Positions 19,946 through 54,530 of a DNA stretch of 64,000 nucleotides are shown piece after piece. The notes under the pieces were generated by a model, which was not told the DNA's origin, did no database searches, and was given only the letters and a program-made list of their open reading frames with translations. Each line of letters starts with the position of its first letter. The stretch's first letter is position 1. Source of the DNA: Treponema sp. (GTDB taxonomy: Bacteria > Spirochaetota > Spirochaetia > Treponematales > Breznakiellaceae); NCBI GenBank assembly GCA_031266775.1, contig JAISAQ010000011.1, positions 1-64,000 on the forward strand, written 5' to 3'. The position numbers and the translations under genes were made by a program.

Positions 19946-19963
19946 ACCAAACTCGGTAAGCAT

Positions 19964-21596: not shown

Positions 21597-21622
21597 TCTT
21601 TTCTCCTTTGCGGGTTTCGCGT

Positions 21623-38117: not shown

Positions 38118-39644
38118 TCATTTTTCGGAAAATTCGCGGTATTCGGTTGGAAGCATGCCGGTCTCCTGCCTGAAAAGCCGGCTGAAATAGCCGGGATCGG
38201 AAAACCCCACCGCCCTTGCGACATCACAGACGTTAATGTTCTTCGCGTGTACAATAAGTTCTATGGCCTTCGCCACGCGCACCTGGGTAAGGTATTCGCC
38301 GGGGGAAACGCCCTTGTACTCCCTGAACAGCCTGCTTATATAGGAAGGCACAAAACCAAAACGTTTGGAAAGCGTTTGATTGGTAATGTGCCCCGCGTAA
38401 TGATCGCGGATGTATTTGTCTATCATCTTCATCATGTCCTCCGCCCTGCCCGCGGTTTCCCGATCCGAAAAGAGGCCGATGAAAATCTCAAGGAGCGCGT
38501 CGTGGAGTTTTTCCCATGAAGGGGACTGCGAAAAAGCCCTGTCAAAGGAATCTTCCCAGTCAACGCGGAGAGGGGCTCCCAGTTCCCTTCCGGCGGAAAG
38601 GTACTGGTATTTAACGATATTCAGTATGGCTTCCGACGGAAAGCCCTTTTCCCTCCAGTATCCGGCCATATCGCCGAGTACCAGATGAAGGGAAGGAATG
38701 TTTCCCGGCCGCAGCGCGCCTGAAAGTTTTTCCCCGTAAATGACGCACTCGTTGAAAAATTCCTGCATCGACGCGCCTGCGGAGAGGTCCTCCGTCAGGC
38801 AAATCCCCCTGCCGAATACCCCGTTGTGCCTCATCCGCCGCAGCAAATTTCCGGCAAGGCCGGCGGGTGTTTCCTTTTCCCGCAGTTCCCCGGCTGCAAC
38901 AGACACCGGACATTCTTTCCGGTTAACCGCCTCGTGGAATTTCATGATGAACTCATTGGCAAAGTCCCCGCCGGAACAGCCCAAAAGGCCGTACCAGTAC
39001 CGGTTCCCCCGCCGCTTTGACATCCATATCTTTCCGCCGTCAGAGGCCAGGGATTCGGCAATCCGGGCAAAGTCCTCCGTACAGGAAAAGGGATCGCCGT
39101 CATGTTCCCCGCCGGAAGAAAAAACAAAATTGCCGCAGTGTACGAGAAAAAGAACGTAACGGGAAAAACCCGGCGGGAACCTGCACGCGCTTCCGGCAAG
39201 CGCCGTGTCCAGGCTGAACGCCTTTCCGTCATGCTCCGGGGAAGGGGAAAGGGGATCTTCCCTTCCCTCAAGGAAAAGCCTTACTTCATTCAGCGAACGC
39301 TTAAGCTGCGCCTGGGTTACCGGCTTCAAAAGATAATCCCGCGCGCCGTAACGCAGGGCTTCCCGCGCGTAATTAAAATAATCAAAGCTCGTAACAATAA
39401 CGGACACGGTAGCAAGACGGTTTTCGCGTATGAACCTGAGGATCTCAAGCCCGTCCGCCCTGGGCATTCGTATGTCGGTTATCAAAAGATGGGGCCTGAG
39501 CTTTTCCACATAGTCCATGGCTTCCCTGCCGTTTACAGCCCTTGCGGCGACTTCCCAGCCGCCGCATTCCGTTTCAACCATGGAAGCGAGGTTTTTCAGA
39601 ATCAGCGTCTCATCTTCCGCTATTACTACCGTATACTTCCCCAT
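38118..39644 (-). CDS. YesN-like response regulator with AraC-type domain (partner kinase displaced)
   Basis: The start is taken as the ATG at 39644 (MGKYTVVIAEDE). The five extra residues in the track belong to the upstream kinase frame. The 508-residue protein has a receiver domain with Asp57 in LLITDIRMPRADG, a long linker, and a C-terminal AraC-type domain (YISRLFREYKGVSPGEYLTQVRVAKAIEL and VARAVGFSDPGYFSRLFRQETG). Directly upstream lies only a frameshifted fragment of a histidine kinase gene. The intact kinase with an identical 3'-end sequence sits ~9.8 kb away at 49427-51241, so that is probably its partner. Confidence 0.9.
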   Translation of the reverse strand: MGKYTVVIAEDETLILKNLASMVETECGGWEVAARAVNGREAMDYVEKLRPHLLITDIRMPRADGLEILRFIRENRLATVSVIVTSFDYFNYAREALRYGARDYLLKPVTQAQLKRSLNEVRLFLEGREDPLSPSPEHDGKAFSLDTALAGSACRFPPGFSRYVLFLVHCGNFVFSSGGEHDGDPFSCTEDFARIAESLASDGGKIWMSKRRGNRYWYGLLGCSGGDFANEFIMKFHEAVNRKECPVSVAAGELREKETPAGLAGNLLRRMRHNGVFGRGICLTEDLSAGASMQEFFNECVIYGEKLSGALRPGNIPSLHLVLGDMAGYWREKGFPSEAILNIVKYQYLSAGRELGAPLRVDWEDSFDRAFSQSPSWEKLHDALLEIFIGLFSDRETAGRAEDMMKMIDKYIRDHYAGHITNQTLSKRFGFVPSYISRLFREYKGVSPGEYLTQVRVAKAIELIVHAKNINVCDVARAVGFSDPGYFSRLFRQETGMLPTEYREFSEK

Positions 39645-39686
39645 GTATCTCCCCTCCAAACCGGACTATGGCGCCGCGGTACAAGG
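39638..39686. repeat. 49-bp direct repeat, left copy
   Basis: Identical over 49 bp to 49440-49488. It spans the start of the response-regulator gene and the 3' end of a kinase gene. The identity breaks off at 39637/39638 and at 39686/39687. Confidence 0.9.
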
Positions 39687-39886: not shown

Positions 39887-40729
39887 TCAGGATTTTAATC
39901 CCGAAATATTCGCTCCGCTCAAGAGATACTTCTGTCCGAAGACATATAACAGCAGCGGAAAGATCATGGATATCATGATCCCCGCGATAACGACGGCGGG
40001 GCTGCCGGTACCCTGGTATCCTTTGAGAAGGTTCAGCCCCAGGGGGAGGGTCATAACCTCGGGCTTGTAAAGAAAAATAAGCGCGTTAAGAAAATCGTTC
40101 CAGGTTCCCAAAAAATGAAGCACCGCCACGACGGCCAGCGCGGGAACCGACATGGGAGCTATGACATGCAAGAAAATCCGGAGGTGGTTTGCGCCGTCCA
40201 TATAAGCGGCTTCGTCATAACTTGCGGGTATGGTTTTCATATATTGACGAGTCAGAAAAATACCCATGGGATAAATCAATGCCGGCAGAACAAGCGCCAA
40301 AGGAGTGTTGACCAGCCCTAAACGGGAAATCACCATAAACCGGGGAATCAGGGTTGACTGCGCCGGTATCATAATTCCCGAAAGAAAAAATAAAAAAACA
40401 ATATCCCGTCCGGGGAACTTTATGCGGGAGAACGAATAGGACGCCATGGCGGTTATAATAAGGGTTACGGTAACCGCCGTGACGGAGATAGTCAGGCTGT
40501 TGGTGATAAACCGGCCGTATGGAACCGAAAGCCATGCTGTGATGTAATTGTGCCACTGCCAGTCGTCGGGTAAAAACGCCGGCGGCAGTTTAAACGAATC
40601 CTGCGGCGCCCTGAGTGAGGTAGAAAACATCCAGAGGATAGGCATGAGCATTAAAAGTGAAAAAGCGGCCATAAAAAGGATAAATAAAAGTCTTTTTGTT
40701 CCGGCGGCAGTCTTGTTAACGTTTATCAT
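39887..40729 (-). CDS. sugar ABC importer permease, MalG type (cassette)
   Basis: A 280-residue membrane protein with six predicted helices and the EAA-type loop DEAAYMDGANHLRIFLHVIAPMSVPAL. It ends near the left boundary of the cassette defined by the 49-bp repeats. It is downstream of the MalF-type partner with 14 bp between them. No ATPase follows, so it must use one encoded elsewhere. Confidence 0.92.
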   Translation of the reverse strand: MINVNKTAAGTKRLLFILFMAAFSLLMLMPILWMFSTSLRAPQDSFKLPPAFLPDDWQWHNYITAWLSVPYGRFITNSLTISVTAVTVTLIITAMASYSFSRIKFPGRDIVFLFFLSGIMIPAQSTLIPRFMVISRLGLVNTPLALVLPALIYPMGIFLTRQYMKTIPASYDEAAYMDGANHLRIFLHVIAPMSVPALAVVAVLHFLGTWNDFLNALIFLYKPEVMTLPLGLNLLKGYQGTGSPAVVIAGIMISMIFPLLLYVFGQKYLLSGANISGLKS

Positions 40730-40743
40730 TATTTATCCCCCGG

Positions 40744-41658
40744 CTATTCATAATCATAAACAACCCATTTGTTTTGAAGCCTGAACTGAATAAATGTGAT
40801 TATAAATATGATGAAAAAAAGACAAAAAGCTATAGCCGCGGCAAACCCCATGTCCTGTGACTGGAACGCGGTTTCGTAGATATAAAGTGAAATGGTGCGC
40901 GAGGAATTGCCCGGTCCTCCCTGGGTGATGAGGTATGGCTCCTCGAAAATCTGGAAACACCCGGCGAATTGCGTGATTGTGACAAAAAAGATGGTGGGAG
41001 ACAGCAACGGAAGCGTTACATGGAAAAAAACCTGAAATGAATTTGCGCCGTCGATGGACGCCGCCTCTTTATATGAAGCCGGTATGTTCTGCAGACCGAT
41101 AAGATAATACAAAAACGAGATGCCTACCCATTTCCAGATACTGAACATTGAGATTGCGGGGACAGACCATTTTGTCGAAACAAGCCAGGGAATTGAAGGG
41201 CCGCCCACACGGGACAGGAGCCAGTTGATGACGCCGTAATCCTTGTGCAGGAGGAAACCCCAGGCGATAGCGACCGCCGAGGTTGTAAGTATCGATGGAA
41301 AATAAATGCAGGTGCGATAGATATAGCGTAAAGACGATCTCGATTCGGCGTTCACCATGGACGCCAGAAAAAGGCTGAATATGGCGTGCAGAGGCACGAG
41401 TACCGCAACGTATTTAAAGGTGTTGCCGAATATTACCCAGCTTTTGGGTGTGGAAAAAAGCCTTAAGAAATTTTTAATGCCGATGAACTGCGGCGATATC
41501 AGGGCGTTGTATTTTGAAAAACTGAGAATAAGCGTCGCCACCACCGGACCGCCGAGAAATACGATAAACATGACGAGCGCGGGAGTCAGAAAAAGATACC
41601 CCGCCAAAGTGTTCATGACCGCTTTTTTACGCTGATAACGGTTCTTTTTATTTGACAA
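40744..41658 (-). CDS. sugar ABC importer permease, MalF type (cassette)
   Basis: A 304-residue inner-membrane permease with six predicted helices and the coupling loop KEAASIDGANSFQVFFHVTLPLLSP. The N-terminus is basic (NKKNRYQRKK). It lies between the cassette SBP (53 bp upstream) and the MalG-type permease. Confidence 0.92.
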   Translation of the reverse strand: MSNKKNRYQRKKAVMNTLAGYLFLTPALVMFIVFLGGPVVATLILSFSKYNALISPQFIGIKNFLRLFSTPKSWVIFGNTFKYVAVLVPLHAIFSLFLASMVNAESRSSLRYIYRTCIYFPSILTTSAVAIAWGFLLHKDYGVINWLLSRVGGPSIPWLVSTKWSVPAISMFSIWKWVGISFLYYLIGLQNIPASYKEAASIDGANSFQVFFHVTLPLLSPTIFFVTITQFAGCFQIFEEPYLITQGGPGNSSRTISLYIYETAFQSQDMGFAAAIAFCLFFIIFIITFIQFRLQNKWVVYDYE

Positions 41659-41711: not shown

Positions 41712-43028
41712 TCAGTATGCGTAATTGGTTATGGCGTCGTTAATTTCCCTCTCTGCCGCCGCCCAGGCTCTGGCATAGTCCGTGGTTTCACCGGCATAAA
41801 TGCTGGTTCTGTAGGACTTTATGATATTGGAAACATCCGCGAAGGCGGGCGGAGCCTGCGGCGAAGTGCAGCCTTTCACATATTTCATATCGTAGAAAAG
41901 CTCCCAGTTTTTGGGGACGCCGGATTTCCCGCAGATTTCCGCGAATATGGCCTGGTTGCAGGGGATGTTTCCGGTGGTGAGGTACTGGCGCAGGAATTCA
42001 GGCGTCGAAGTCCACACAGCAAGACCGGCGGCTTCATCAAAATGTTTGGTCTTGCTTATAACTACATAGCCGTCCGCACCGTAGGTCATCACTTCCTTTT
42101 TGAAATGGGGAATGGTGGTGATATACACGTCGGTAAAATTATTGTTGGCATAGGATGCCGTGGGCCACCTGCCGGCAAGGGTCATGGCCACGCGGCCGTC
42201 AACCAACAACTGGTTGTAGTCGTCGTTGGCCTGGGGAATGGGCGAGTACCCCCAAGTGTGGATCATATCGTAACAGAACTTGCTGAACTCGATCATCGCG
42301 GGAGTATTGAGATTCGCCTTTTTCATATCGGGCGCAAGAAAATCGACGCCCCAGGTTGCCGCAAGGGCGCTGTACATAAAATGATCATTAGTGAGATAAA
42401 AAGCGTACTGTTTTTCCCCATTTGCCTTTGTTTTGGTGAGTTTTCTGCACACCTCAAGGAATTCTTGCAGGCCCCAGGAACCCGCGGGAGGAAGCGGAAT
42501 TCCCGCCTCGGCAAACAGCTTTGTGTTACAGTGGACCACCACGTTGTTCTGCGACATGAGGGTCGAATAGATGCTGCCGTCCGCGCCCCGGAAAGGACCA
42601 ATCAGCTCTTCCGGCGTATTGGTAAAAATGTAGTCCTTCATGTCCGGTCTTGCGTTCAGGTACGGGTTAAGCGGCGCCGCCAGACCCGAAGAGACAAGTG
42701 TCGAGATGCCTTCCAGTGCCATAAGCACCACGTCAGGAGGATCCCCGGCGGCCACCATGGTGGATACGGATGTTACAAAGTCCGCCCACAAGTTGTTGAC
42801 CGAAATGTACGTTGCCTCGACTTTCACATTTGGGTTTGATTTTGTGTAGACCGAAAAAATTTCGTTCAGTCTTTCGATGCTGTTGGCCTCATTCATCATC
42901 TGGGCGACTTTAAGCGTTACCGCTCCGCCACTTCCGGCAGCCTTGTCGCCCCCTCCCCCCGCGAAGACCGGAGACGCCGCGATTGCCAACGCCAACAGTG
43001 CCGGCAACAAAATTTTCATCAGTCTCAT
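41712..43028 (-). CDS. ABC importer solute-binding protein (cassette)
   Basis: The ATG at 43028 follows AGGAGG, giving 438 residues. The signal sequence ends at VFAGGGGD with no cysteine. The body resembles family 1 extracellular solute-binding proteins, with VTLKVAQMMNEANSIERLNEIFSVY and GDPPDVVLMALEG near the N-terminus. It begins the minus-strand importer operon, divergent from the catabolic operon, so importer and enzymes are probably co-regulated. Ligand not identifiable by eye. Confidence 0.9.
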   Translation of the reverse strand: MRLMKILLPALLALAIAASPVFAGGGGDKAAGSGGAVTLKVAQMMNEANSIERLNEIFSVYTKSNPNVKVEATYISVNNLWADFVTSVSTMVAAGDPPDVVLMALEGISTLVSSGLAAPLNPYLNARPDMKDYIFTNTPEELIGPFRGADGSIYSTLMSQNNVVVHCNTKLFAEAGIPLPPAGSWGLQEFLEVCRKLTKTKANGEKQYAFYLTNDHFMYSALAATWGVDFLAPDMKKANLNTPAMIEFSKFCYDMIHTWGYSPIPQANDDYNQLLVDGRVAMTLAGRWPTASYANNNFTDVYITTIPHFKKEVMTYGADGYVVISKTKHFDEAAGLAVWTSTPEFLRQYLTTGNIPCNQAIFAEICGKSGVPKNWELFYDMKYVKGCTSPQAPPAFADVSNIIKSYRTSIYAGETTDYARAWAAAEREINDAITNYAY

Positions 43029-43058
43029 TCTTGTCCTCCTAAAAAATAGTGATTTCAA

Positions 43059-43087
43059 ATCATAAGCCCTATTTTGCAAAATGTCAA
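43059..43087 (-). promoter_or_regulatory. promoter of the cassette ABC operon
   Basis: On the minus strand TTGACA (43082-43087) and TATGAT (43059-43064) are separated by 17 bp, placing transcription start about 25 bp before the SBP ATG. Confidence 0.65.
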
Positions 43088-43149
43088 TAAAATTTTGTAA
43101 TTTTTTTAGTAAAAAAGCTAAACTAACTATGATTTTTTAGTTTTTTTTA

Positions 43150-43179
43150 TTGACAAGCGGAAAAATACTCATTTATTAT
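43150..43179 (+). promoter_or_regulatory. promoter of the cassette catabolic operon
   Basis: TTGACA at 43150-43155 and TATTAT at 43174-43179 are separated by 18 bp. It faces away from the SBP promoter; the ~60 bp between the two promoters are A/T-tract-rich and could hold the operator. The 5' leader would contain the hairpin at 43195-43233. Confidence 0.6.
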
Positions 43180-43194
43180 AGTACTGTTGTACTG

Positions 43195-43233
43195 GAGCTT
43201 GTTCCAAAACCCGGTTGGTTTTGAAACAAGCTC
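43195..43233. repeat. dispersed hairpin, CCCGGTTGG loop class, in the operon leader
   Basis: Two 17-base arms (43195-43211, 43217-43233) pair with one wobble. It is nearly the reverse complement of 2284-2322. It lies between the predicted promoter and the first gene of the catabolic operon, so it could attenuate transcription or stabilise the message. Confidence 0.65.
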
Positions 43234-43263
43234 ACTGATTTACAGCGTTATCAGGTGGTATTC

Positions 43264-44343
43264 ATGGAAACAGCCGAAAAAACCTATAATATAGATGAAA
43301 AAGACTTGGCGCGTCTTGGCGCTGTTGTTTTTGAGGCATACGGTGTTCCCCGGGAAGACGCCGAGATACTTTCCCTTTCGCTGGCGGAAGCGGATATCAG
43401 GGGGATCAAGAGCCATGGCATGGTTCGGGTGCCTATCTATATTGATCAGTTTGTAAACGGAAAATTTTCAAAAGAAACTAAACTTACCGTTAAAAAAGAA
43501 ACGCCCGTATCCCTGGTTCTGGACGGCAATAATGGTCCCGGGGCTGTTGTCAGCGCCAGGGCTGTTATGATGACCAGAAAAAAAGCGGAACAGTCGGGTT
43601 TCGCTTTTGCCGCCGTACACGGGAGCAATCATTTTGGAACCGCTGGATACTGGTCCGAAATGCTGGCCGGGGATGACATGATAGGTTTCGCGTCAACCAA
43701 TAGCATCCCGATTGTGGCTGCCCCCGCGGGGACGGGACGCGGGATAGGCAGCAATCCCTTTTCGTATACCATACCGGCAAATAAATACGCGTCTGTATGC
43801 CTTGATGTCTCCGTGGGCGTAATGGCCCAGGGTAAAATTTACGAATACGCCCGCTTGGGAAAGCCACTCCCCGAAAACGCCTGGCTTGGGCCTGACGGCC
43901 AGGTTACCAGGGATCCCAAACAATGGGACCCGATGGATTACGTTATGATACCTTTCGGGATGCACAAGGGTTTTGGCTTGGGCGTGGTCATGGAAATGCT
44001 TACCAGCGGTCTGGCGGGCGCGGAATTTCACCGGCAGTACCAGGGTCTTAACGCCAAAATGACGGAAAACAGCCACTGTTTCTGGGCGATGAGGATTGAC
44101 GCTTTTACGGATGTGAAAAAATACCGGGACCAGGTGGACGCTTATATCGAATATCTTCACTCCCTGCCCGTAACGAATCCCGGTGACAAAGTATATTATC
44201 CGGGCGAAATTGAAGCCGTGCTTAAGGCAAAATACCTCCGGGAAGGCGTGCCGGTAGCCGCGAAAGTGGTGGAAGATATGCTGGGTTTGGCCGCCGGAGC
44301 CTCAGCGGATGTCTCGTTTATAAAGTCTAAATACCATATTTAA
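43264..44343 (+). CDS. Ldh2-family malate/lactate/ureidoglycolate-type dehydrogenase
   Basis: Started at the ATG at 43264 behind AGGTGG, giving 359 residues. Family features are SHGMVRVPIY with the catalytic histidine, DGNNGPGAVVSARAV, HGSNHFGTAGYW, and NPFSYTIPA. This fold is distinct from Rossmann dehydrogenases; members oxidise 2-hydroxy acids such as malate, lactate, ureidoglycolate, 2,3-diketogulonate or sulfolactate with NAD(P). It is the first gene of a five-gene plus-strand operon with SDR, M24-like, amidohydrolase and glycosidase-like genes. Substrate unknown. Confidence 0.9.
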   Translation: METAEKTYNIDEKDLARLGAVVFEAYGVPREDAEILSLSLAEADIRGIKSHGMVRVPIYIDQFVNGKFSKETKLTVKKETPVSLVLDGNNGPGAVVSARAVMMTRKKAEQSGFAFAAVHGSNHFGTAGYWSEMLAGDDMIGFASTNSIPIVAAPAGTGRGIGSNPFSYTIPANKYASVCLDVSVGVMAQGKIYEYARLGKPLPENAWLGPDGQVTRDPKQWDPMDYVMIPFGMHKGFGLGVVMEMLTSGLAGAEFHRQYQGLNAKMTENSHCFWAMRIDAFTDVKKYRDQVDAYIEYLHSLPVTNPGDKVYYPGEIEAVLKAKYLREGVPVAAKVVEDMLGLAAGASADVSFIKSKYHI

Positions 44344-44379
44344 GCGGAAAAGCGATCTGAATTTTCGGGGAGAAAGAAG

Positions 44380-45267
44380 ATGAACAGAAATTACCGGGAA
44401 ATGACGGAAAACACTATCTTTATCAGAAGCAGAAAGGCTTGGCCGGATCGATTTAAGGACAAGGTTGCTATCGTGACGGGAGGCAGCCAGGGAATCGGTA
44501 AAGCCATCGTCCAGGAGCTGTGCCGGGAAGGGGCAAAAGTCAGTTTTACCGGCAGGGGAGAAGCGGAGGGCAAAAAAACCGCCGGGGAACTGCTGGACGC
44601 CGGTTTCGATGCGCTTTACATCCAGGCGGATATGATAAAGGAAGACGACTGCAAGAGGGTGGTGGAGAACACGGCCGCCAAATGGGGCAAAGTCAACCAT
44701 CTGGTAAACAATGCGTATCGCTTTATTGACAAAGGCGCCTCCGCCGGGGAAGAGGACTGGTACAACATTTTGTTTACCGGTCCGGTGGCTTACGCCCGGA
44801 TGATGAAATACTGTGAGCCGTACATGAAAAAGGAAGGCGGCGGATCTATTGTCAACATTTCGAGCATCGCAGCTCATGTGGCCTTCCCCAACCGCTGGAC
44901 CTATAACGCGTCCAAAGGCGCGGTCACTATGCTCACCATGTGCGCGGCCATAGACTTCGCGGCCGAAAATATCCGGGTAAACACGGTGACGCCCGGCACG
45001 GTGTGGACCCGCGAAACCCTGCGCGGGGTGTGGGACCTTGACGCCGGCGAAAAGGAATGGTATTTCCACGAACTCAACAGGCGGCAGATGATGCAGCGAT
45101 GCGGCGAACCGGTGGAAATCGCCGGCGCCGTTCTTTACATGCTGTCTGACGATGCGTCCTATACGACAGGCCACGAACTGGTGGCTGACGGTGGATATAT
45201 CAATATGGGCCAGCAGGGCGTCAAGGAAACGGCGCTGATACAGGACGCGGAGAGTGGAAAAAAATGA
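44380..45267 (+). CDS. short-chain dehydrogenase/reductase
   Basis: A 295-residue SDR with the nucleotide-binding motif TGGSQGIGKA, the NNAY segment, catalytic serine in NISSIAA, and YNASK supplying Tyr and Lys. The C-terminus carries SDDASYTTGHELVADGGY, the standard SDR ending. A GGGGAG precedes the ATG. The stop overlaps the next ATG by 4 bp, so the genes are translationally coupled. It presumably catalyses an alcohol/ketone step in the same pathway as the Ldh2-type enzyme. Confidence 0.92.
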   Translation: MNRNYREMTENTIFIRSRKAWPDRFKDKVAIVTGGSQGIGKAIVQELCREGAKVSFTGRGEAEGKKTAGELLDAGFDALYIQADMIKEDDCKRVVENTAAKWGKVNHLVNNAYRFIDKGASAGEEDWYNILFTGPVAYARMMKYCEPYMKKEGGGSIVNISSIAAHVAFPNRWTYNASKGAVTMLTMCAAIDFAAENIRVNTVTPGTVWTRETLRGVWDLDAGEKEWYFHELNRRQMMQRCGEPVEIAGAVLYMLSDDASYTTGHELVADGGYINMGQQGVKETALIQDAESGKK

Positions 45268-46358
45268 AAAACCCGGAATTGGAAGAAAAGCTCTCACGAG
45301 TAAGAGCTTTTATGGAAAAAGAAAAATACGATGCCGTTTTGTTCCGCAGAAACGACTCCTTCTCGTGGCTGACCTGCGGCGGGTGCGCGTTTGTCGATAA
45401 AGGGGCCGAACTGGCCAATGCCAGTCTCCTGGTGACTCTGGCAAAGGTTACGGCACTCTACAATTCGAGCGAAAAATTCAGAATACCCGAAGAAGAGCTG
45501 GCGGATCTGCCTTTTGAGATGGAGGATTATACCTGGAACCAGGACCCCGGCGTTTCCATGGGGAAGTATCTTGACGGGAAAAGAACCGCTTCCGATACCG
45601 CCGGCTTTGGCGCCGAGTACCGCGGGGAAGATCTCTCCAGGCTGTTCTATGTTCTTACTCCTGAAGAAATGGAACGTTACCGGAAAATAGGCGTCCAAAG
45701 TACCGTGTTGCTTGAAGACGCGGCGAGACAGGTACGGCCGGGGCAGACCGAGTACCAGATAGCCGGGCGCACAACTGCCGCGCTGATGGCCGCGGGATTC
45801 CAGGTCCCGGTGTGCCTTGTGGCGTCGGATGAACGGCTCCTGCGTTACCGCCATCCTGTTCCGGCGGCCAGGACCGTCGAACGCATGGTGATGGTCGCGG
45901 TAACGGTCCGTAAATACGGCCTCAATGTTTCGATAAGCAGAATAGTAAGCTTTGGCCCCCTGGACGAACTGACCAGGAGTAAACAGAATGCCGTGGCGTT
46001 CATCGATGCCCACCTTATTTCCGCAACGATACCGGGCGCGGTGACCGGCGAAATAGTAAGATCCGCCGGGAAGCTCTACAAAGACGCCGGATTTGGCGGC
46101 GACTACGAGTTGCACCACCAGGGCGGCGCCATGGGTTATGCCGTCAGGTATTATTGTGCCCCGGAAAGTCAAAAGGACAAGGTGGAGGATCGCATGGCTT
46201 TTTCGTGGAATCCGACCATTGCGGGCGTAAAAAGCGAAGATACCCTGATTGTGACGGACGGGAAGCCGGCGGTCATTTCGAAAGGCGGAAGCTGGCCGCA
46301 GATTCCGGTACATATTGGAAATAAAACCGTCGAAAGACCTGACATTCTTGTTTTTTAG
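45264..46358 (+). CDS. M24-fold (creatinase/aminopeptidase P-like) protein lacking most metal ligands
   Basis: A 364-residue protein with an N-terminal creatinase-type domain and a C-terminal pita-bread domain. The first metal-ligand strand, normally a DxG...GYxxDxTR pattern, reads VMVAVTVRKYGLNVSISRIV, so both aspartates are lost. The first glutamate (usually IEPG) is asparagine in SWNPTIAG, while KSEDT keeps the last one. Three of five ligands are therefore missing, resembling metal-free creatinase more than aminopeptidase P. It may hydrolyse a C-N bond in a small molecule rather than a peptide (inference). It overlaps the SDR gene by 4 bp. Confidence 0.75.
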   Translation: MKNPELEEKLSRVRAFMEKEKYDAVLFRRNDSFSWLTCGGCAFVDKGAELANASLLVTLAKVTALYNSSEKFRIPEEELADLPFEMEDYTWNQDPGVSMGKYLDGKRTASDTAGFGAEYRGEDLSRLFYVLTPEEMERYRKIGVQSTVLLEDAARQVRPGQTEYQIAGRTTAALMAAGFQVPVCLVASDERLLRYRHPVPAARTVERMVMVAVTVRKYGLNVSISRIVSFGPLDELTRSKQNAVAFIDAHLISATIPGAVTGEIVRSAGKLYKDAGFGGDYELHHQGGAMGYAVRYYCAPESQKDKVEDRMAFSWNPTIAGVKSEDTLIVTDGKPAVISKGGSWPQIPVHIGNKTVERPDILVF

Positions 46359-46370
46359 CGGAGATAATTA

Positions 46371-47285
46371 ATGAAGATAATTGACGCCCATGTTCATCTG
46401 ATTGAATTTATGGCCGGGTTTAACAGACGGGGTGAAATGCGGCCTATCGGCGGAGGCAAGGCTAGATGGGCTTCCGGAGAAGTATGGAATCTCGTTCCGC
46501 CCGGATTGGGGGAATACGGCTTTACCGGCGAGAAGATGCTGGAAATAATGGATGCCCACGGTGTGGAAAAAGCGGTTCTTGTGCAGGGAAACGCTTCGGG
46601 GTATCAGAACGAATACTCTTACGAGATGATGAAAAAGTATCCCGGAAGATTCACCGCGGCGTGTACTTTCGATCCGTTCATGCTTGACGCGGAAAAAATA
46701 AAAAACCGTTTTTTCTATGAGATGCGTTTTCCAATCGTAAAGTTCGAAGTCGGAACCGACTGCGGGCTTATGAGCTATCACCGGCCTTTTCCGCTTGACG
46801 GAGAACCGATGAGTCCCATTTATGACGAGATAGAGAAGAACGGGCAGGTACTGGTGATGGACGTGGGGCGCTTTACCGACGCCAGCCACCAGCATGGCGC
46901 CCTGGTGAATATCGCCAAAGGGCATCCGGCGATGAAGTTTGTCATCTGCCATATACTTCTGCCTTCGAAAGGCGACGATGCGGAACTGGAACGCCAGATG
47001 AAGGCCCTTGATTTTGACAATGTCTGGTTCGATCTCGCCGCGCTTCCCCTGCTGCTCCAGGGCGAGCCGAATCCTGACGCTCTTGTGCTTCACTTTATCG
47101 AAATCGCCAGAAAAATTGCCGGACCAAAGCGGCTTATGTGGGGAAGCGATGTGCCTTCGACCCTTCAGTATAACAGTTACGCCGATCTTATCAACATGAT
47201 TGTCAGGTCGGGCATCTTTACCGACAGCGAATTTGAGGATGTGTTTTACAACAACGCCGCGCTGGTATATCCGTTTGGAAAATAA
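46371..47285 (+). CDS. amidohydrolase-2-family TIM-barrel hydrolase
   Basis: A 304-residue member of the amidohydrolase_2 group. The first strand gives DAHVHL with two metal-binding histidines, then a mid-chain CHILLPS histidine and the late WGSDVPS aspartate. Members are hydrolases of lactones or amides, or metal-dependent decarboxylases, and all use one metal ion. It begins 12 bp after the M24-like gene and precedes the glycosidase-like gene. It is a candidate ring-opening or decarboxylating step in the unknown cassette pathway. Confidence 0.85.
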   Translation: MKIIDAHVHLIEFMAGFNRRGEMRPIGGGKARWASGEVWNLVPPGLGEYGFTGEKMLEIMDAHGVEKAVLVQGNASGYQNEYSYEMMKKYPGRFTAACTFDPFMLDAEKIKNRFFYEMRFPIVKFEVGTDCGLMSYHRPFPLDGEPMSPIYDEIEKNGQVLVMDVGRFTDASHQHGALVNIAKGHPAMKFVICHILLPSKGDDAELERQMKALDFDNVWFDLAALPLLLQGEPNPDALVLHFIEIARKIAGPKRLMWGSDVPSTLQYNSYADLINMIVRSGIFTDSEFEDVFYNNAALVYPFGK

Positions 47286-47327
47286 ACGCAGACGATGATA
47301 AAAAGGAACCAGAGGAGGATGCAATTA

Positions 47328-49391
47328 ATGAAAAATAAACAGCCCATAACCCGTGTCTTTTTTGACACCCAGTTTCCGGAATGGAACGACAAAAAAGTCG
47401 CTTCTCGTTTTAATCCTGATGAAGTTGCCGGGATTTTCGCCGAGTCAGGCGTCGAATCGGCGGTGGTTTTCGCCAAATGTCAGTACGGCAATTTTTATTA
47501 TGATACCAAAAGGGGCCATAAACACGCGGGGCTCGGAAACCTCGATCTGCTGCGGTCGATGACGGAAAAGTTCCACCGTCATTCGATAGAAGTACTGGCC
47601 TATTATTCCACAGCCTGGGACGAGTTGCAGGGGACGCTCCATCCGGACTGGCTCACCGAGGATTTTTCCGGCAAAAGGACCCGCGGGGCGTTCCGCTGGA
47701 AAACCCTCTGTATCAATTCGCCGTACCGGGCGCTGGTTAAGGAGGACCTTTGCGAGATTGCGGCGGAAACTGATGTCGATGGTTTCTGGATAGACATGAC
47801 CATCATCGGGAAGGATCGTTGTTATTGCCCGTATTGCGACAAGAAATTCAGGGCGCTCTACGGAAAAGGCATTCGGGAAGCCCGGGGCGCCGGCATGGAT
47901 ATAGAACTGGCAGAATTCCGTTACAATTACATCGAAGAATTCTATGATGAGATTTATAAGGAACTGAGGCGTATCAAACCGTCCCTTAATATCACCAATA
48001 ATTACTGGGGCTATCCGTATCAGTCCAGAAACATGGGGAGCCGGGCCGTGGGGGCGCTTAAACAGGCGGATTTTATCACCGGCGAGGCGTATGTGGATTG
48101 GACCGGTCTTGAGGCGCCGTCGTTCTTTTCGCGATTTCTCTCCGGCGCGGCCGGAGGCCGGCCCTTTGAAGCCCTGGTAGGGCGATTCATCAATACCTGG
48201 GACTTTACCAGGAAAACTCCCGATCAGATGTTCTTTGAGGCGATGACTATTTTCTCCCTCGGAGGAACGGTTACCATCGATGATGAACCGTTTTATGACG
48301 GAACGATAGACCTTACGGTGTACCGGACCCTGATAGGCCCCGCGTTCCGGGCGATCAAAAAACTGTCCCATACAATCCGCGGGGAAAGCCTTAAATTCGC
48401 CGCCATTTTCCATTCCCAGGCGACAAAAGATCTTATTCCCGAAGACGCGCCATCTCCTTTCATCAGAAACATATCAGGCGCGTATAAACTGCTCCAGGAA
48501 CGGCACATCCCTGTGAATTTTGTTTTTGATGAGAGCCTTACGGAAGAAGAAATCAGACGCTACAGGGTCATTTTGCTTCCGGGCGCCGCGGCCCTCGGTG
48601 AAAAAACGCGGAAAATACTGGAAGACTATGTGCGAAACGGCGGCGTTGTTACGGGATTCGGGCGGAACGCCTTTTTTGAAAACCTGTTCTCAGGCAGCGT
48701 CGTATACAAAGGTCTTTCGGAATACAGCCTTTCGTATATTCCCCTGGAAGGCGAAAAAACTCTCGTCAGGGGCGCCTACTGCCGTTATGTGCAATCAGGC
48801 GCTGGATGCTCCGGCTGGGAAACTGGCGCGCCCGTCATCGACCCTATTGCCGAAACAAGCGTCGAGGTCTTTTTTCACAACAACCTTCCGTCTCCGTATC
48901 TGGAAAGCAGCGTACCCTCATATTACATCGTTCCCCTGGGCAAAGGATGGGTCATCCAGTACAACCAGCCGATATCGGAGAGTTACGCGAAACAGCGCGG
49001 CTTTGCCGTCAGGGACGCCGTCATCGCGCAGATCCTGCGCCGCACGGGAAAGCCGGATTTCTGGATTGACGCCCCGGCCAGGGTGGATACGGTCGCGTAT
49101 CACGATAAGGAGGCGCGCCGTTTTTACATACACCTGTCCGCCTTCGCCGCCGAGGCAAGTCTTGCGTGCGGCCTGTTTGACACCACGAATGGTAATTTTG
49201 AACGGCCTTACGCGATGATGGAAAACCGGGACCCGGTGAAGGAAATAACCGTCCACCTGGCGGCAGAAAAAGAAATAAAATCCGTCATTTCACTTTACGA
49301 AAAGAATGAACCGCGCTGGGAACAAACGGCGGAAACGCTCGTCATCCGTACACCCTTGGAACTATGGGACGTCATTGAGGCAGAATATTAA
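47328..49391 (+). CDS. glycosidase-like protein with trimerisation-type domain
   Basis: The ATG at 47328 has AGAGGAGG at proper spacing and is preferred to the track start at 47295; the product has 687 residues and no signal peptide. The N-terminal half is a TIM barrel like hypothetical glycosyl hydrolase 6 or GH29/GH42-related proteins (VLAYYSTAWDEL, DVDGFWIDMTIIG, CPYCDKKF). A domain near residues 370-460 resembles the beta-galactosidase trimerisation fold (RRYRVILLPGAAALGEKTRKILEDYVRNGG). Activity is unproven; the two cysteines in YCPYCDKKF are typical of this uncharacterised group. It is the last gene of the operon and converges on the kinase gene 35 bp away. Confidence 0.75.
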   Translation: MKNKQPITRVFFDTQFPEWNDKKVASRFNPDEVAGIFAESGVESAVVFAKCQYGNFYYDTKRGHKHAGLGNLDLLRSMTEKFHRHSIEVLAYYSTAWDELQGTLHPDWLTEDFSGKRTRGAFRWKTLCINSPYRALVKEDLCEIAAETDVDGFWIDMTIIGKDRCYCPYCDKKFRALYGKGIREARGAGMDIELAEFRYNYIEEFYDEIYKELRRIKPSLNITNNYWGYPYQSRNMGSRAVGALKQADFITGEAYVDWTGLEAPSFFSRFLSGAAGGRPFEALVGRFINTWDFTRKTPDQMFFEAMTIFSLGGTVTIDDEPFYDGTIDLTVYRTLIGPAFRAIKKLSHTIRGESLKFAAIFHSQATKDLIPEDAPSPFIRNISGAYKLLQERHIPVNFVFDESLTEEEIRRYRVILLPGAAALGEKTRKILEDYVRNGGVVTGFGRNAFFENLFSGSVVYKGLSEYSLSYIPLEGEKTLVRGAYCRYVQSGAGCSGWETGAPVIDPIAETSVEVFFHNNLPSPYLESSVPSYYIVPLGKGWVIQYNQPISESYAKQRGFAVRDAVIAQILRRTGKPDFWIDAPARVDTVAYHDKEARRFYIHLSAFAAEASLACGLFDTTNGNFERPYAMMENRDPVKEITVHLAAEKEIKSVISLYEKNEPRWEQTAETLVIRTPLELWDVIEAEY

Positions 49392-49426: not shown

Positions 49427-51241
49427 TCAAGATACTTTGTCCCCATGTATCTCCCCTCCAAACCGGACTATGGCGCCGCGGTACAAGGATTTTGCCGAAA
49501 AATGGATATTGTTGTTGTAAAGGAGGCGCAGCCTGGCAAGCGAATTCAAAAGGCCGAGGCCTCCCGGATGCAGCCCGCCTATTCCCCTGAGGGCATCCTC
49601 AAAAAGGGATTCGCTTTGGGCGATTATTTCTTCTACCCGCGAGGCGTCGATTCCAGTCCCGTTATCGATAACCTCGGCCGTCCATTTTTCCCCTTCGGCA
49701 AAAATATTGATGCTCACCTGCCAGGGAAACGGCGCGTTGACAAAGGCGTGCCTGAAGCAGTTTTCCACGACGGTCTGCAGCATAAGCCGGGGAATGGGGA
49801 AGTCGCCGCAGATTTCGTCCATGTGAACGGAAAAAATAAATTCATCGGAATAGCGTATCCTCATAAGATTGAGGTAATTGCAGGTATACTCAAGTTCCCC
49901 GCGTATGGTGCTGCTGTCGCGGTCAAATTTCATGACATAGCGCAGCATGTTTGAAAGCAATTCGCATATATCGGCAATCTGGGGAACGCCGTTTTCATAG
50001 GCAATCGCGTTGATAGTGCTGATGCAGTTATACATAAAATGCGGGGAAATCTGGGACTGCAGCGCCAGATAATAGGCTTCCCGTTCGTTCAGCTTTGATT
50101 GCAGCGTCTGATTCATCGCTTCGCGCACCCGCGCAATCATTTCGTTGTAAAACTGCTGAAGCTGCCGTATATCCCCGGTGGAAGAATGAAAATCGACGTT
50201 CATTTCCAGATTGTCGCGGGTAACATTCCGCATGGCCCCGATGATCTCTTCCAGGGGCCTTGTAAGGTAACGGCTGACAAGGAGGTTAAGGCTCACGGCG
50301 ACTATCATGAGAAACAAAACGGCAATCAGCATGATCCCAAGGTACACCATGAAAAAGCCCGAACCGTACTTCTGCATGACAAGAACGCCGTAGTCAAGGC
50401 CTTCTATATGCTTCAAACTTGCCAGATAGCCCCTCCCCGCGGCCCCCCTGTGAAAACCGTTTTTGAAGCCGTTCCGGTATGCGCCAAGGATGAATTCCGC
50501 GTCGGAAGTAAAGGGATCTTTTACCGCCGGATAATTGATGATCGATTTTTCCCCGTCAAAAAGAAAAACGCGGATTGTTTCATCGGAACTAACGCAGATG
50601 CTTTCTATTTCGGATCTCTTTTTCAAAACCTGAAGTATTCCCATGTCCCTTCCGGTAGGGGGATCGTACAGCCTCCGCGACAGTGAAAAATACTCGGAAG
50701 CGGCGCCGGACCCTGTTACCCAGTACGAACGGTGGGGGCCCAGAAGCAGGGGGGAAGGCGGATTCAGGGCGAGCCTTCTTTTTACGCCGGCCATTACCCC
50801 CTGTTCGGCGTCGCTGCGTATTGTCCCCCAGTCGGTGCTGCTTTGGGCGGTTGTTATAAAGGCCCTGTCGCTGTAAATGTTGACGACAGTATTGGAAATA
50901 TCAAGCCCCAGTATGACAAGCAGATTCTGAAAAACAACGCTGAGTTTGTCCCTGTTCTGATCAAAATAATTCCGGCCGCCCCCGTAACCGGCAATGCTTT
51001 CGCCGATGATGTCCATGATGCCCTGGCTGAAGAAAATCCTCGTGCCGATGCGGTCCATCTGCCGGAATTTCTCCCTTATCTGGCTGGCGACATTTTCCGA
51101 GTAGGCGTCAAGGCCCGCCTCCGCCCCGGCGCTGACGCTGCCTGAAACATACACGCCTATCATGATAAAGGCAATGGTGATGATAAAAATAAAAAGGAGC
51201 GAATACACAAGAAAAATGCGTCTGTGAAGACTTGAGGGCAT
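49427..51241 (-). CDS. YesM-like sensor histidine kinase (separated from its regulator)
   Basis: Taken from the ATG at 51241 (604 residues); the track start is 12 codons earlier and no strong ribosome-binding site is visible. It has two transmembrane helices (near residues 10-32 and 280-303), a large extracytoplasmic sensor between them, a HAMP domain, the phosphorylated histidine in QISPHFMYNCISTI and a C-terminal HATPase (LMLQTVVENCFRHAF, GGLGLLNSLARL). The last 15 codons lie in the 49-bp repeat also found at the start of the regulator gene at 38118-39644. It is divergent from the SBP gene at 51404 and probably controls that importer. Confidence 0.9.
   Translation of the reverse strand: MPSSLHRRIFLVYSLLFIFIITIAFIMIGVYVSGSVSAGAEAGLDAYSENVASQIREKFRQMDRIGTRIFFSQGIMDIIGESIAGYGGGRNYFDQNRDKLSVVFQNLLVILGLDISNTVVNIYSDRAFITTAQSSTDWGTIRSDAEQGVMAGVKRRLALNPPSPLLLGPHRSYWVTGSGAASEYFSLSRRLYDPPTGRDMGILQVLKKRSEIESICVSSDETIRVFLFDGEKSIINYPAVKDPFTSDAEFILGAYRNGFKNGFHRGAAGRGYLASLKHIEGLDYGVLVMQKYGSGFFMVYLGIMLIAVLFLMIVAVSLNLLVSRYLTRPLEEIIGAMRNVTRDNLEMNVDFHSSTGDIRQLQQFYNEMIARVREAMNQTLQSKLNEREAYYLALQSQISPHFMYNCISTINAIAYENGVPQIADICELLSNMLRYVMKFDRDSSTIRGELEYTCNYLNLMRIRYSDEFIFSVHMDEICGDFPIPRLMLQTVVENCFRHAFVNAPFPWQVSINIFAEGEKWTAEVIDNGTGIDASRVEEIIAQSESLFEDALRGIGGLHPGGLGLLNSLARLRLLYNNNIHFSAKSLYRGAIVRFGGEIHGDKVS
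49440..49488. repeat. 49-bp direct repeat, right copy
   Basis: Identical to 39638-39686. Here it is the 3' end of the intact kinase gene. Homology to the regulator locus stops exactly at 49440, after which the kinase terminates within four codons. Confidence 0.9.
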
Positions 51242-51371
51242 ACAGAAAATGATACACCCCGGAAAGGGCTTTGTCAAAATAAATCATTGGAACCGGTTTT
51301 GCCCGCTTCGAGTTTAAAATTTTACCAGAGAAATTTTAATTTTTTCACTTTTCCGCACGGGGAAGCTCCCG

Positions 51372-51403: not shown

Positions 51404-52696
51404 ATGAAGAAAACGTTTGTGGTTTTGATTTCCCTGTCCGTTTTCATGTTGCTTTCCTGCGGGAACAGCGGCGGGACGGGCGCGCAGAACGAGAAGATTA
51501 CCCTGAGCGTGTACTGCTCAAAGGACTTGTGGAGGGATATATACCTTCCTGTGGCGCAAAAAATCGAGGAAGATCACGGCATCGCCATTGATCTTGTAAC
51601 TCTGCCCAATGAACAGCTGGAGCCTGTGATCAGCGTAAAGCTCGCCACCAACGATCCCCCCGATCTTTTCACTACAAACACACCCCAAGCGGTGGACCAG
51701 TACAACGCCACCCAGATGTGCCTTCCCCTCGACGGAGAGGCGTGGGTCTCCCGTCTTGCGGCCCCCGATCTTCTGCGGTACAAGGGAGACGGAAAGATCT
51801 ACGCCATGCCTGTCCGCGAGTCTTCAACTTTCTTCGGCGGCGCTTACTACAACAAGGCGCTGATGGAACAGTGCGGCATATACAACCCGGAGCCCAAAAC
51901 ATTCAGGGAATTTCTTGATATTCTTGAAAAAATAAAACAGGCCGGGCACACCCCCATTTACATGACCGACAAGGACGGCTGGTGCACCCAGGTATGGACC
52001 ACCCTCGGCTGGGGAGTAGCCCTTGACGCCAAAAAGGACACCGTGTACGAACAGCTCAATTCCAACCGGATTAAATTCGCCGCCATTCCCGAACTCGTAA
52101 CGGTGCTCCGGCAGATGGGAGACCTCTACAAGGCGGGCTACGTGAACGAGGATCATATGTCCCAGACCTACGACACCGCCAAGGTTGCGGTAGGCGAAGG
52201 CCGGGCCGTCATGGCCATTCAGGGGGAATGGTTCGCCACGGATCTGAACGTGGTGTACCCCGATGTCGAACTGGGTTCCTTTGCCATTCCCTTCCTTGAC
52301 AAAATGATGATAGGCACCGGCGCCTATGTCTCAGGCTGGTATGTGCCCAAAGGGAAAAATTCCCCAAAGGCGCTGGAATTCCTCAACTACTGGAGCCAGA
52401 GCGAATACCAGAATATAATCTTCCGGGAAACCCCCGGATTCCCCGGCTTTGTTGACGCCGACGGCGGCGACGTGCTTCCCGGCATAAAGAACATAGTGGA
52501 AAAATACATAGACACCGGGAAATACACGCCCGAATTCGACGCGTATTTTGATTCGGCCCGGCCCATCATGAACGACTACCTCTTCGGCAACATCCAGGAA
52601 GTCGCGGCCGGTTCCAAGACCGCGGAGGAAGCCCTTGCCGACTGGGACAGCAAATTTTCCCAGTTCATGAAAGACAAGGAAGTACCCGGCTTCTAG
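51404..52696 (+). CDS. ABC importer solute-binding lipoprotein
   Basis: A 430-residue protein started behind GGAGG. The signal ends in FMLLSCGNSG, a lipobox, so unlike the other two SBPs here it is lipid-anchored. The body is a family 1 solute-binding protein (ITLSVYCSKDLWRDIYLPVAQKIEED, NDPPDLFTTNTPQAV). It starts a plus-strand operon with two permeases, a GH78 rhamnosidase and an RpiB-like isomerase, so its ligand is likely a plant or bacterial glycan fragment containing rhamnose (inference). Confidence 0.9.
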   Translation: MKKTFVVLISLSVFMLLSCGNSGGTGAQNEKITLSVYCSKDLWRDIYLPVAQKIEEDHGIAIDLVTLPNEQLEPVISVKLATNDPPDLFTTNTPQAVDQYNATQMCLPLDGEAWVSRLAAPDLLRYKGDGKIYAMPVRESSTFFGGAYYNKALMEQCGIYNPEPKTFREFLDILEKIKQAGHTPIYMTDKDGWCTQVWTTLGWGVALDAKKDTVYEQLNSNRIKFAAIPELVTVLRQMGDLYKAGYVNEDHMSQTYDTAKVAVGEGRAVMAIQGEWFATDLNVVYPDVELGSFAIPFLDKMMIGTGAYVSGWYVPKGKNSPKALEFLNYWSQSEYQNIIFRETPGFPGFVDADGGDVLPGIKNIVEKYIDTGKYTPEFDAYFDSARPIMNDYLFGNIQEVAAGSKTAEEALADWDSKFSQFMKDKEVPGF

Positions 52697-52792
52697 TCAC
52701 ACATCGGGGAAGCTGTCCGGGCGGGTTTTGAAATTCGAGGACGCTTCCCGGGGAACCGGGAAGATCCCGGCTCCCGGCCTTTGGGGGAACAC

Positions 52793-53689
52793 ATGCGGAA
52801 AACCGGAACCGGGGGAAACGGCAGTTTTATACGGCAGGCCTATCCCTATTATCTTTTGCTGCCCGCGATTATTCTCTTTACGGTGTTCTTTATCGTCCCC
52901 GCCGCAGGCGGCGTTTTTATCTCCCTTACCAACTGGGACATCACAAGGCCCGCAATCCGCTTTAACGGCATTGACAACTACATATACATGTTCGGCGACG
53001 CGGATTTCATCCTTGCCATATCGAACACCCTTGCCTTCATGGCCTCCATCGTTATTCTGCGGAACACCATTGCCATACTGCTTGCGCTGGCCCTTACTTC
53101 CAACCTGAAAACATCGACATACCTCCGCACCGCGTTTTACATTCCGTCGGTACTAAGCTACGTCGTAGTGGGGATCATGTTTACCGCCCTTTTTCAGATG
53201 AACGGCACGGTAAACCAGGGGCTCCGCCTTTTGGGTTTTGCCGTAAAGCATGAATGGCTTGCCAGCCAAAAGACCGCGCTCCTTACGGTAATCGCCGAAG
53301 ACGTATGGAAATGGACGGGCTTTCACATGATCATCTACATCGCGGGGATCAACGCCATTCCCTCCGATTTTTACGAATCGGCCCGCATCGACGGCGCGTC
53401 TTACCCCCAGCGCTTCTTTCACATTACCCTGCCCCTTCTTGTCCCGGCCCTGACCGTCAACGTAACGCAGTCTGTCATAGGCGGCTTCCGCGTGTTTGAG
53501 CAGGTGCTGACCCTTACCAAGGGAGGACCCGGCCACAAGTCGACCGTCATAGGGATGATGATATACGAATATTTCGGCAGGGGTTTCTACGGCAGATCAA
53601 CGGCAATGAGCATGTTTCTTTCGGTTATTGTCATCATTGTTACCGTTCTCATACGAAGGGCGTTCAGAAAAGGGGAAATGGAATTATGA
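52793..53689 (+). CDS. sugar ABC importer permease, MalF type
   Basis: The ATG at 52793 follows GGGGGAA, giving 298 residues. Six predicted helices and the coupling loop YESARIDGASYPQRFFHITLPLLVPAL identify it as a carbohydrate ABC permease. The stop overlaps the next ATG by 4 bp. No ATPase gene occurs in this operon. Confidence 0.92.
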   Translation: MRKTGTGGNGSFIRQAYPYYLLLPAIILFTVFFIVPAAGGVFISLTNWDITRPAIRFNGIDNYIYMFGDADFILAISNTLAFMASIVILRNTIAILLALALTSNLKTSTYLRTAFYIPSVLSYVVVGIMFTALFQMNGTVNQGLRLLGFAVKHEWLASQKTALLTVIAEDVWKWTGFHMIIYIAGINAIPSDFYESARIDGASYPQRFFHITLPLLVPALTVNVTQSVIGGFRVFEQVLTLTKGGPGHKSTVIGMMIYEYFGRGFYGRSTAMSMFLSVIVIIVTVLIRRAFRKGEMEL

Positions 53690-54519
53690 TGAACGGTAAA
53701 GGCAGATACAGGCCCTGTGATTTTGTCCTTGAAATTATCATGCTGGCGGCAAGCCTCGTTGTCGTGGTTCCGCTGCTCCTCGCGCTGTTCGGCTCGTTCA
53801 AGTCTCCGGCGGAAGCCCTTCATTACAACATACTTCCCCCGTCACGGTGGCATCCTGAAAATTATTACGAAGTAGTGCGGAAAAGCAATATTCTTGCCGC
53901 CTTCAAAAACAGCGTGATCATAACGGCGGCGGTTGCAAGCGTCACCATCATCATCTGTTCCCTTGCGTCGTTTATCATCGCCCGCCGGGGAGACAGGATC
54001 TGCCGTTTTCTTGCTTCCTATTTTAACCTTGCCCTCATAGTGCCCATGGCAATAGTGCCGACCATACTGCTGCTTCAGCGCATGCATTTAATGAACACCA
54101 AAACCGGCATGATCTTCGTGATGATAGCGTCGAATATTTCCTGGGGCATGTTCATCATGACCAGTTTCATGCACACCATTCCCCGCGAAATGGACGAGGC
54201 CGCCATTATAGACGGCTGCGGGCCCGTGCGGCTGTTTTACTTGGTGATCTTCCCCCTGCTTAAACCCGTAATAATGACGAACATTGTCATCATAGGCATG
54301 GGCACATGGAACGATCTGCAGACGCCCCTTTACATGCTTAACTCAAGCAGAAACCTCACCATGCCCCTTACCGTGTACAATTTCATGGGCCGCTATTTTT
54401 CCCAGTGGAACCTGATCTTCGCCGACCTTGTGCTGGTAGGGCTTCCCATGGTTTTAATGTACGCTTTTCTTCAGAAATATATTGTATCAGGCATTACCGC
54501 GGGCGCGGTAAAAGGCTGA
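53686..54519 (+). CDS. sugar ABC importer permease, MalG type
   Basis: A 277-residue membrane protein with six predicted helices and the loop DEAAIIDGCGPVRLFYLVIFPLLKPV. It is coupled to the upstream permease by a 4-bp overlap, and the rhamnosidase gene follows after 11 bp. It forms the other half of the membrane channel. Confidence 0.92.
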   Translation: MMNGKGRYRPCDFVLEIIMLAASLVVVVPLLLALFGSFKSPAEALHYNILPPSRWHPENYYEVVRKSNILAAFKNSVIITAAVASVTIIICSLASFIIARRGDRICRFLASYFNLALIVPMAIVPTILLLQRMHLMNTKTGMIFVMIASNISWGMFIMTSFMHTIPREMDEAAIIDGCGPVRLFYLVIFPLLKPVIMTNIVIIGMGTWNDLQTPLYMLNSSRNLTMPLTVYNFMGRYFSQWNLIFADLVLVGLPMVLMYAFLQKYIVSGITAGAVKG

Positions 54520-54530
54520 AAGGAGACGGC

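Follow-up and report, generated by a model that had tools for sequence, protein, structure and literature searches.

Among the described systems closest to the genes considered here are the GH151 alpha-L-fucosidases, in which D154 is the nucleophile and E235 the acid/base (PMC10154630), the non-phosphorylative (oxidative) pathway of L-fucose, in which PMC11199699 places an L-KDF dehydrogenase, and the pita-bread enzymes creatinase and ectoine hydrolase DoeA. In a 64,000-nucleotide stretch of Treponema sp. DNA (assembly GCA_031266775.1, contig JAISAQ010000011.1, positions 1 to 64,000; hereafter the window) we analyzed a run of five genes at 43264 to 49391 encoding, in this order, proteins of the Ldh2, short-chain dehydrogenase/reductase (SDR), M24, Amidohydro_2, and GHL6 families. 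The run is a real, compact, catabolic, and apparently unique operon made of known enzyme families, and its M24 member belongs to a large, apparently uncharacterized family.

The operon and its metal-free M24 protein

All five genes are intact and lie on the + strand, separated by 36, -4, 12, and 42 bp, with their reading frames open and each protein scoring above its Pfam gathering cut-off (Ldh_2, 326 bits; adh_short_C2, 181; Peptidase_M24, 47; Amidohydro_2, 87; GHL6, 79). They run divergently from a - strand operon for a substrate-binding protein (SBP) and two permeases, and the cluster is bracketed by a YesN-type response regulator on one side and a YesM-type kinase on the other. The open reading frames, Pfam matches, and coordinates confirmed the tightly spaced, divergent arrangement described in the first-pass annotation of this DNA, which made no mention of the regulator or the kinase. 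The host draft genome comprises 3.1 Mb in 108 contigs and is 87% complete.

The third gene (45264 to 46358, +) had been described in that annotation as a metal-poor M24, and rightly so. Upon alignment with Pyrococcus prolidase, four of the five metal ligands (D, D, H, E, E) turned out to be replaced, D209, D220, H284, and E313 corresponding to T214, S223, G288, and N316, respectively (the placement of N316 requires a small manual gap shift), while the sole survivor, E325, is retained at prolidase E327. Residues G288, N316, E325, H197, D189, and R191 were invariant across 40 sequences. The AlphaFold2 model (mean pLDDT 95) has the pita-bread fold and in Foldseek matched prolidases, creatinase, and DoeA, with E values down to 1e-22 for prolidase and creatinase. 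The protein lacks the five-ligand set of the metallopeptidases and follows the creatinase/DoeA-type pattern, in which the fold, a His, and a Glu are kept and the metal ligands are lost; we take its H197 and E325 to be the equivalents of creatinase H232 and E358. Because the ligands are replaced and the modeled fold matches these enzymes, the protein is, judging from alignment and model, a metal-free pita-bread protein that retains creatinase-type residues.

Relatives of this protein at 28 to 40% identity were found in 52 of 394 other genomes of the class, in 4 of 79 genomes of the family, in 29 of 380 Bacilli, and, with only matches at E < 1e-60 considered, in 2 of 371 Clostridia. A scan of the GTDB collection with the M24 alignment added at least 80 loci at 34 to 41%, none of those listed having the partner set; the patterns used there (WNPS.., HHQGG[ASP][IA]GY) do not fit the query itself, so the closest orthologues may have been missed. 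Across all searches the identity reached at most 41% among the matches listed. We compared 140 M24 neighborhoods (40 + 80 + 20), a few places being counted twice, as the class sample overlaps the GTDB Spirochaetes/Spirochaetales (L148, L185, and L189 are G028, G103, and G066). The relatives lie beside genes for TctABC with Gfo/Idh and ROK proteins, DctP, sugar ABC transporters, an FGGY kinase, a galactokinase-type kinase, and fucose-isomerase-like proteins. In some lineages they adjoin housekeeping genes, e.g., SMC/FtsY, MreB, and NfeD, and the neighborhood alone is therefore insufficient to fix the role of the M24 protein. Among the matches listed, neither an amidohydrolase relative nor a GH151-like gene turned up in the 140 neighborhoods; three (L041, L052, L156) contained Ldh2, and about 17 had an SDR.

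Literature searches found no paper on this M24 family or on the five-gene set. We propose, at somewhat less than an even chance of being right, that in the catabolism of sugars or sugar acids the widespread metal-free M24 family performs a novel step (hydrolysis, retro-aldol cleavage, or dehydration) and is used here in an undescribed pathway. If so, the "M24 family metallopeptidase" annotations in hundreds of environmental genomes would denote sugar or sugar-acid catabolic enzymes instead of metallopeptidases, and the operon, with its own binding protein, a lactonase-like enzyme, and two dehydrogenases, would be a compact site for finding the M24 substrate. On the modest reading, it would be one further accessory sugar operon in a spirochaete; the only point of wider reach is that metal-free M24 proteins occur in operons for sugars and sugar acids.

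Several observations on these neighborhoods stand on their own. The link of the M24 family to TctABC with Gfo/Idh and ROK recurs in L042 to L066 and others of the 40-locus class set and in L165, L166, and L187. Two spirochaete loci, L065 (G113:C147:41000-60900) and L052 (G146:C150:1-15000), resemble sulfoquinovose clusters with a metal-free M24 member mid-cluster. Both contain a PRK10426/YihQ-type GH31 far above the cut-off, a sulfoquinovose-isomerase-like protein (157 to 158 bits against a cut-off of 700), and TauE; L052 also has a YiaK-type Ldh2 above the cut-off, and L065 the C-terminal half of a transketolase. They are presumably sulfo-TK-type sulfoquinovose clusters. A parallel to the M24 case is offered by the M81/MlrC "metallopeptidases" found in sugar operons, namely, in a Cetobacterium fucose operon (L271:8021-9487) and beside a spirochaete sugar ABC transporter with a lactonase (L084:11892-13274).

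The partner enzymes, the importer, and the surrounding window

The fourth gene (46371 to 47285, +) encodes an Amidohydro_2 TIM-barrel protein assigned to a lactonase-like clade by Pfam, alignment, and profile search. Its H7, H9, H194, and D260 were invariant in an alignment with 17 relatives, which provides the HxH motif and the barrel-end Asp of amidohydrolases. The best PDB matches in the profile search were the 2-pyrone-4,6-dicarboxylate hydrolases and the 4dlf group, which we take to be L-fucono-lactonase; against the L-fucono-1,5-lactonase model NF052480 the protein scored 20.6 bits, under the equivalog cut-off of 400. A single-sequence fold model (pLDDT 41) was too poor for use. Relatives at 37 to 49% identity occurred in 22 of the 394 class genomes and, as a fragment, in 1 of the 79 family genomes, and in about 15 of 21 loci they stood beside sugar importers. 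In 12 Spirochaetia loci the neighbors were a permease pair (PermA-PermB) and a histidine kinase with a response regulator (HK/RR), while L100 had the permeases and the response regulator. PermA (12 loci and L100) and PermB (12 loci) were more similar to the importer of our operon than to either of the other two CUT1 systems in the window. The HK/RR proteins of these loci matched the other HK/RR of the window about equally well, and we therefore claim no orthology for them. A CUT2-type permease adjoins the relative in L087, and in L084 the relative is accompanied by a CUT2 importer, a Zn-type sugar dehydrogenase, an SMP-30 lactonase, and an M81 protein. Since its members adjoin CUT1 or CUT2 importer genes, the clade is tied to sugar import.

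The fifth gene (47328 to 49391, +) starts most probably at ATG 47328, behind an AGGAGG-like site, ATG 47295 being possible as well. Pfam, a match to the GH151 alpha-L-fucosidase 6TVK (E of 9e-24), and alignment characterize its product as a GHL6/GH151-like intracellular glycosidase-fold protein and, on these grounds, as a divergent GH151 relative. The catalytic D154 and E235 were placed at 6TVK chain positions 183 and 264 by one common offset of 29, deduced from the alignment. D155 of the Treponema protein aligns with the nucleophile and is invariant in alignment A4, while A246 occupies the acid/base position in both alignments (6TVK and A4); the nearby E252 might replace the missing Glu. Since the fucosidase motif HLELES..GWGYDHFP is missing from the protein in alignment A4, its glycosidase activity is only putative. 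No signal peptide is evident upon inspection of the sequence, so cleavage of a glycoside would probably follow import. GH151 relatives elsewhere sit with sugar ABC importers in Cetobacterium (with fucA, a kinase, and fucI) and Rhizobium (with GH95). In the genomes searched, the identity of GH151-like genes to ours did not exceed 28%. The same genome carries three GH151-like paralogues (C31:14460-16172, C84:19766-21232, and C108:41484-42914), each near permease genes.

The first two genes encode dehydrogenases. Ldh2 (43264 to 44343, +) is, by Pfam, PDB, and NCBIfam matches, an Ldh_2-family NAD(P)-dependent 2-hydroxy-acid dehydrogenase (or 2-keto-acid reductase) with the motifs SHG..R (H51) and NHFG (H123). 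Its PDB matches were 1v9n, 2x06 (L-sulfolactate dehydrogenase), and 1vbi, malate and L-sulfolactate dehydrogenases being the nearest, and its scores were under every NCBIfam equivalog cut-off, the best being that for L-sulfolactate dehydrogenase NF040650 (216 bits against 500). Among the genomes of the taxonomic family, Ldh2 is common, at up to 38% identity. The SDR (44380 to 45267, +; Pfam, NCBIfam), a candidate sugar or sugar-acid dehydrogenase, is of the classical type, with the TGxxxGxG motif (TGGSQGIG) and the S-Y-K triad (S...YNASK); it gave many comparable NCBIfam matches to sugar and alcohol dehydrogenases, including L-fucose dehydrogenase, all below the cut-off.

The divergent operon encodes an SBP with a signal-peptide-like N terminus, predicted to be extracellular (41712 to 43028, -; SBP_bac_8/SBP_bac_1), and two BPD_transp_1 permeases forming the PermA/PermB pair, of the UgpA/MalF type (40744 to 41658, -) and the UgpE/MalG type (39887 to 40729, -), which is the composition of a CUT1 sugar ABC importer. 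From geometry alone, the promoters of both operons are presumed to lie at 43029 to 43263. The importer operon has no ATPase of its own; in CUT1 importers the ATPase is often shared, and two UgpC/MalK-type ATPases are encoded at 20478 to 22750 (UgpC-like, 368 bits against a subfamily cut-off of 432). The probable regulator, assigned by Pfam, is the YesN-type protein (receiver and AraC helix-turn-helix; 38118 to 39659, -), and its probable partner is the YesM-type sensor histidine kinase (HAMP, His_kinase; 49427 to 51277, -), which could instead serve the SBP-permease-GH78 operon at 51404 to 57182. The region is flanked by an alpha-xylosidase-like GH31 (34466 to 36583, -; 246 bits against 606) and a GH78 alpha-L-rhamnosidase (54531 to 57182, +) with its own SBP and permeases (51404 to 54519), which makes the window a glycan-utilization hub. 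Elsewhere in it, a PDDEXK_4 (PD-(D/E)XK nuclease-superfamily) protein (17242 to 18411, -) adjoins a 505-amino-acid protein (18449 to 19963) with zero Pfam matches.

A putative route and its alternatives

We consider it an evenly balanced proposition that the locus is an inducible operon by which a sugar derivative is imported and oxidized, the likeliest candidates being a small glycoside and a sugar lactone or acid. The sequences establish the gene set, the layout of the operon, the folds, the state of the active-site residues, and the tie of the amidohydrolase clade to sugar importers. In the route that we infer, in its substrate as well as in the direction and order of every step, the two-component pair would sense the compound or a breakdown product, and the CUT1-type importer, powered by a shared UgpC/MalK-type ATPase, would take the compound in. 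The intracellular GH151-like enzyme would then release a sugar, which the SDR would oxidize to a lactone or keto-sugar; the amidohydrolase would open the lactone, Ldh2 would interconvert the resulting 2-hydroxy and 2-keto acids, and the metal-free M24 protein, with its creatinase-like active site, would carry out a further hydrolysis or lyase step of unspecified kind. This reading is favored by the operon geometry, the family matches, the lactonase profile, the importer linkage, and the neighborhoods of the GH151 and M24 relatives. Weighing against it are the missing acid/base motif of the GH151-like protein, the lack of a dehydratase or aldolase within the operon to complete an oxidative sugar pathway, the single weak enolase-superfamily match (33 bits) in the 87%-complete genome, and the lack of any further copy of the set that would point to a joint function of the five genes. 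Conservation of the cluster, on which the first-pass annotation had let its proposal depend, was not found: a wide, non-exhaustive search revealed the five-gene set in no other genome examined. The only congener searched (G434) had neither the M24 nor the amidohydrolase gene, scans of viral contigs with M24, Ldh2, amidohydrolase, and alignment A2 yielded nothing, and plasmid searches yielded distant relatives only. The undescribed pathway suggested in that annotation is possible.

The annotation had also envisaged uptake, glycoside removal, and oxidation of a glycosylated or amide-bearing hydroxy acid, with C-N or ring cleavage. Uptake, possible glycoside removal, and oxidation fit the families and the neighborhoods of their relatives if the compound is sugar derived; the amide-bearing substrate and the C-N cleavage found almost no support. 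We judge it unlikely that the substrate is a hydroxy acid bearing an amide or amidine, that its C-N bond is cut by the M24 protein and/or the amidohydrolase, as by creatinase and DoeA, and that Ldh2 serves as a ureidoglycolate-type dehydrogenase. The M24 protein does fold like these enzymes and retains the matching His and Glu, and Ldh2 does match ureidoglycolate dehydrogenase models, but the latter score is well under the cut-off and lower than that for sulfolactate dehydrogenase, the vicinity holds no genes of the amine, urea, or amino-acid kind, the amidohydrolase belongs to a lactonase-like clade, and the M24 relatives neighbor transporters for sugars and carboxylates as well as kinases and isomerases; the creatinase-like fold is the only support for C-N cleavage. 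About as unlikely is that genes of sugar metabolism, each acquired independently, came together here by chance and share no substrate. The set occurs in no relative, and the nearest relatives of each gene lie in different genomes and contexts; such an origin is opposed by the overlapping or nearly touching genes, all intact and on a single strand, their ribosome-binding sites, and the divergent importer. Similarly unlikely is a fucoside pathway, in which the GH151 alpha-L-fucosidase would yield L-fucose, the SDR and the amidohydrolase would be L-fucose dehydrogenase and L-fuconolactonase, and Ldh2 would act on L-lactate, an end product of the non-phosphorylative route. The 6TVK match, the GH151 relatives in fuc operons, the 4dlf-group match, and the weak scores of the SDR and the amidohydrolase against L-fucose dehydrogenase and lactonase models agree with it, but these scores were far below the cut-offs (163 against 300 and 20.6 against 400 bits), the acid/base motif is missing, the genome offers no clear enolase-type fuconate dehydratase beyond the one weak match, and the known route leaves no place for the M24 protein.

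Comparison with described systems

The putative sugar-derivative operon can be set against its described counterparts one enzyme at a time. Ldh2 has the same fold and catalytic His motifs as ComC (L-sulfolactate dehydrogenase), YiaK, and AllD but scores under all the equivalog cut-offs. The GH151-like protein shares with ALfuk2 (6TVK; PMC10154630) the fold and the nucleophile Asp, and the complementing His503 of ALfuk2 corresponds to the His of FFHNN, whereas it has Ala at the position of the acid/base Glu235, no substrate-pocket motif, and about 25% identity. With creatinase and DoeA the M24 protein has in common the pita-bread fold (Foldseek TM of about 0.77 to 0.79), the ligand loss, and His197 and Glu325, but the identity is only 12 to 16%, and its relatives reside in sugar or carboxylate operons instead of the creatine or ectoine operons of those enzymes. 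As in the non-phosphorylative pathway of L-fucose, an SDR and an amidohydrolase-fold lactonase-like protein occur together, here with a member of a glycosidase family tied to fucose operons. The operon differs from that pathway in having neither a fuconate dehydratase nor a diketo-fuconate hydrolase, in scoring under all the equivalog cut-offs, and in possessing two additional components, Ldh2 and the metal-free M24 protein.

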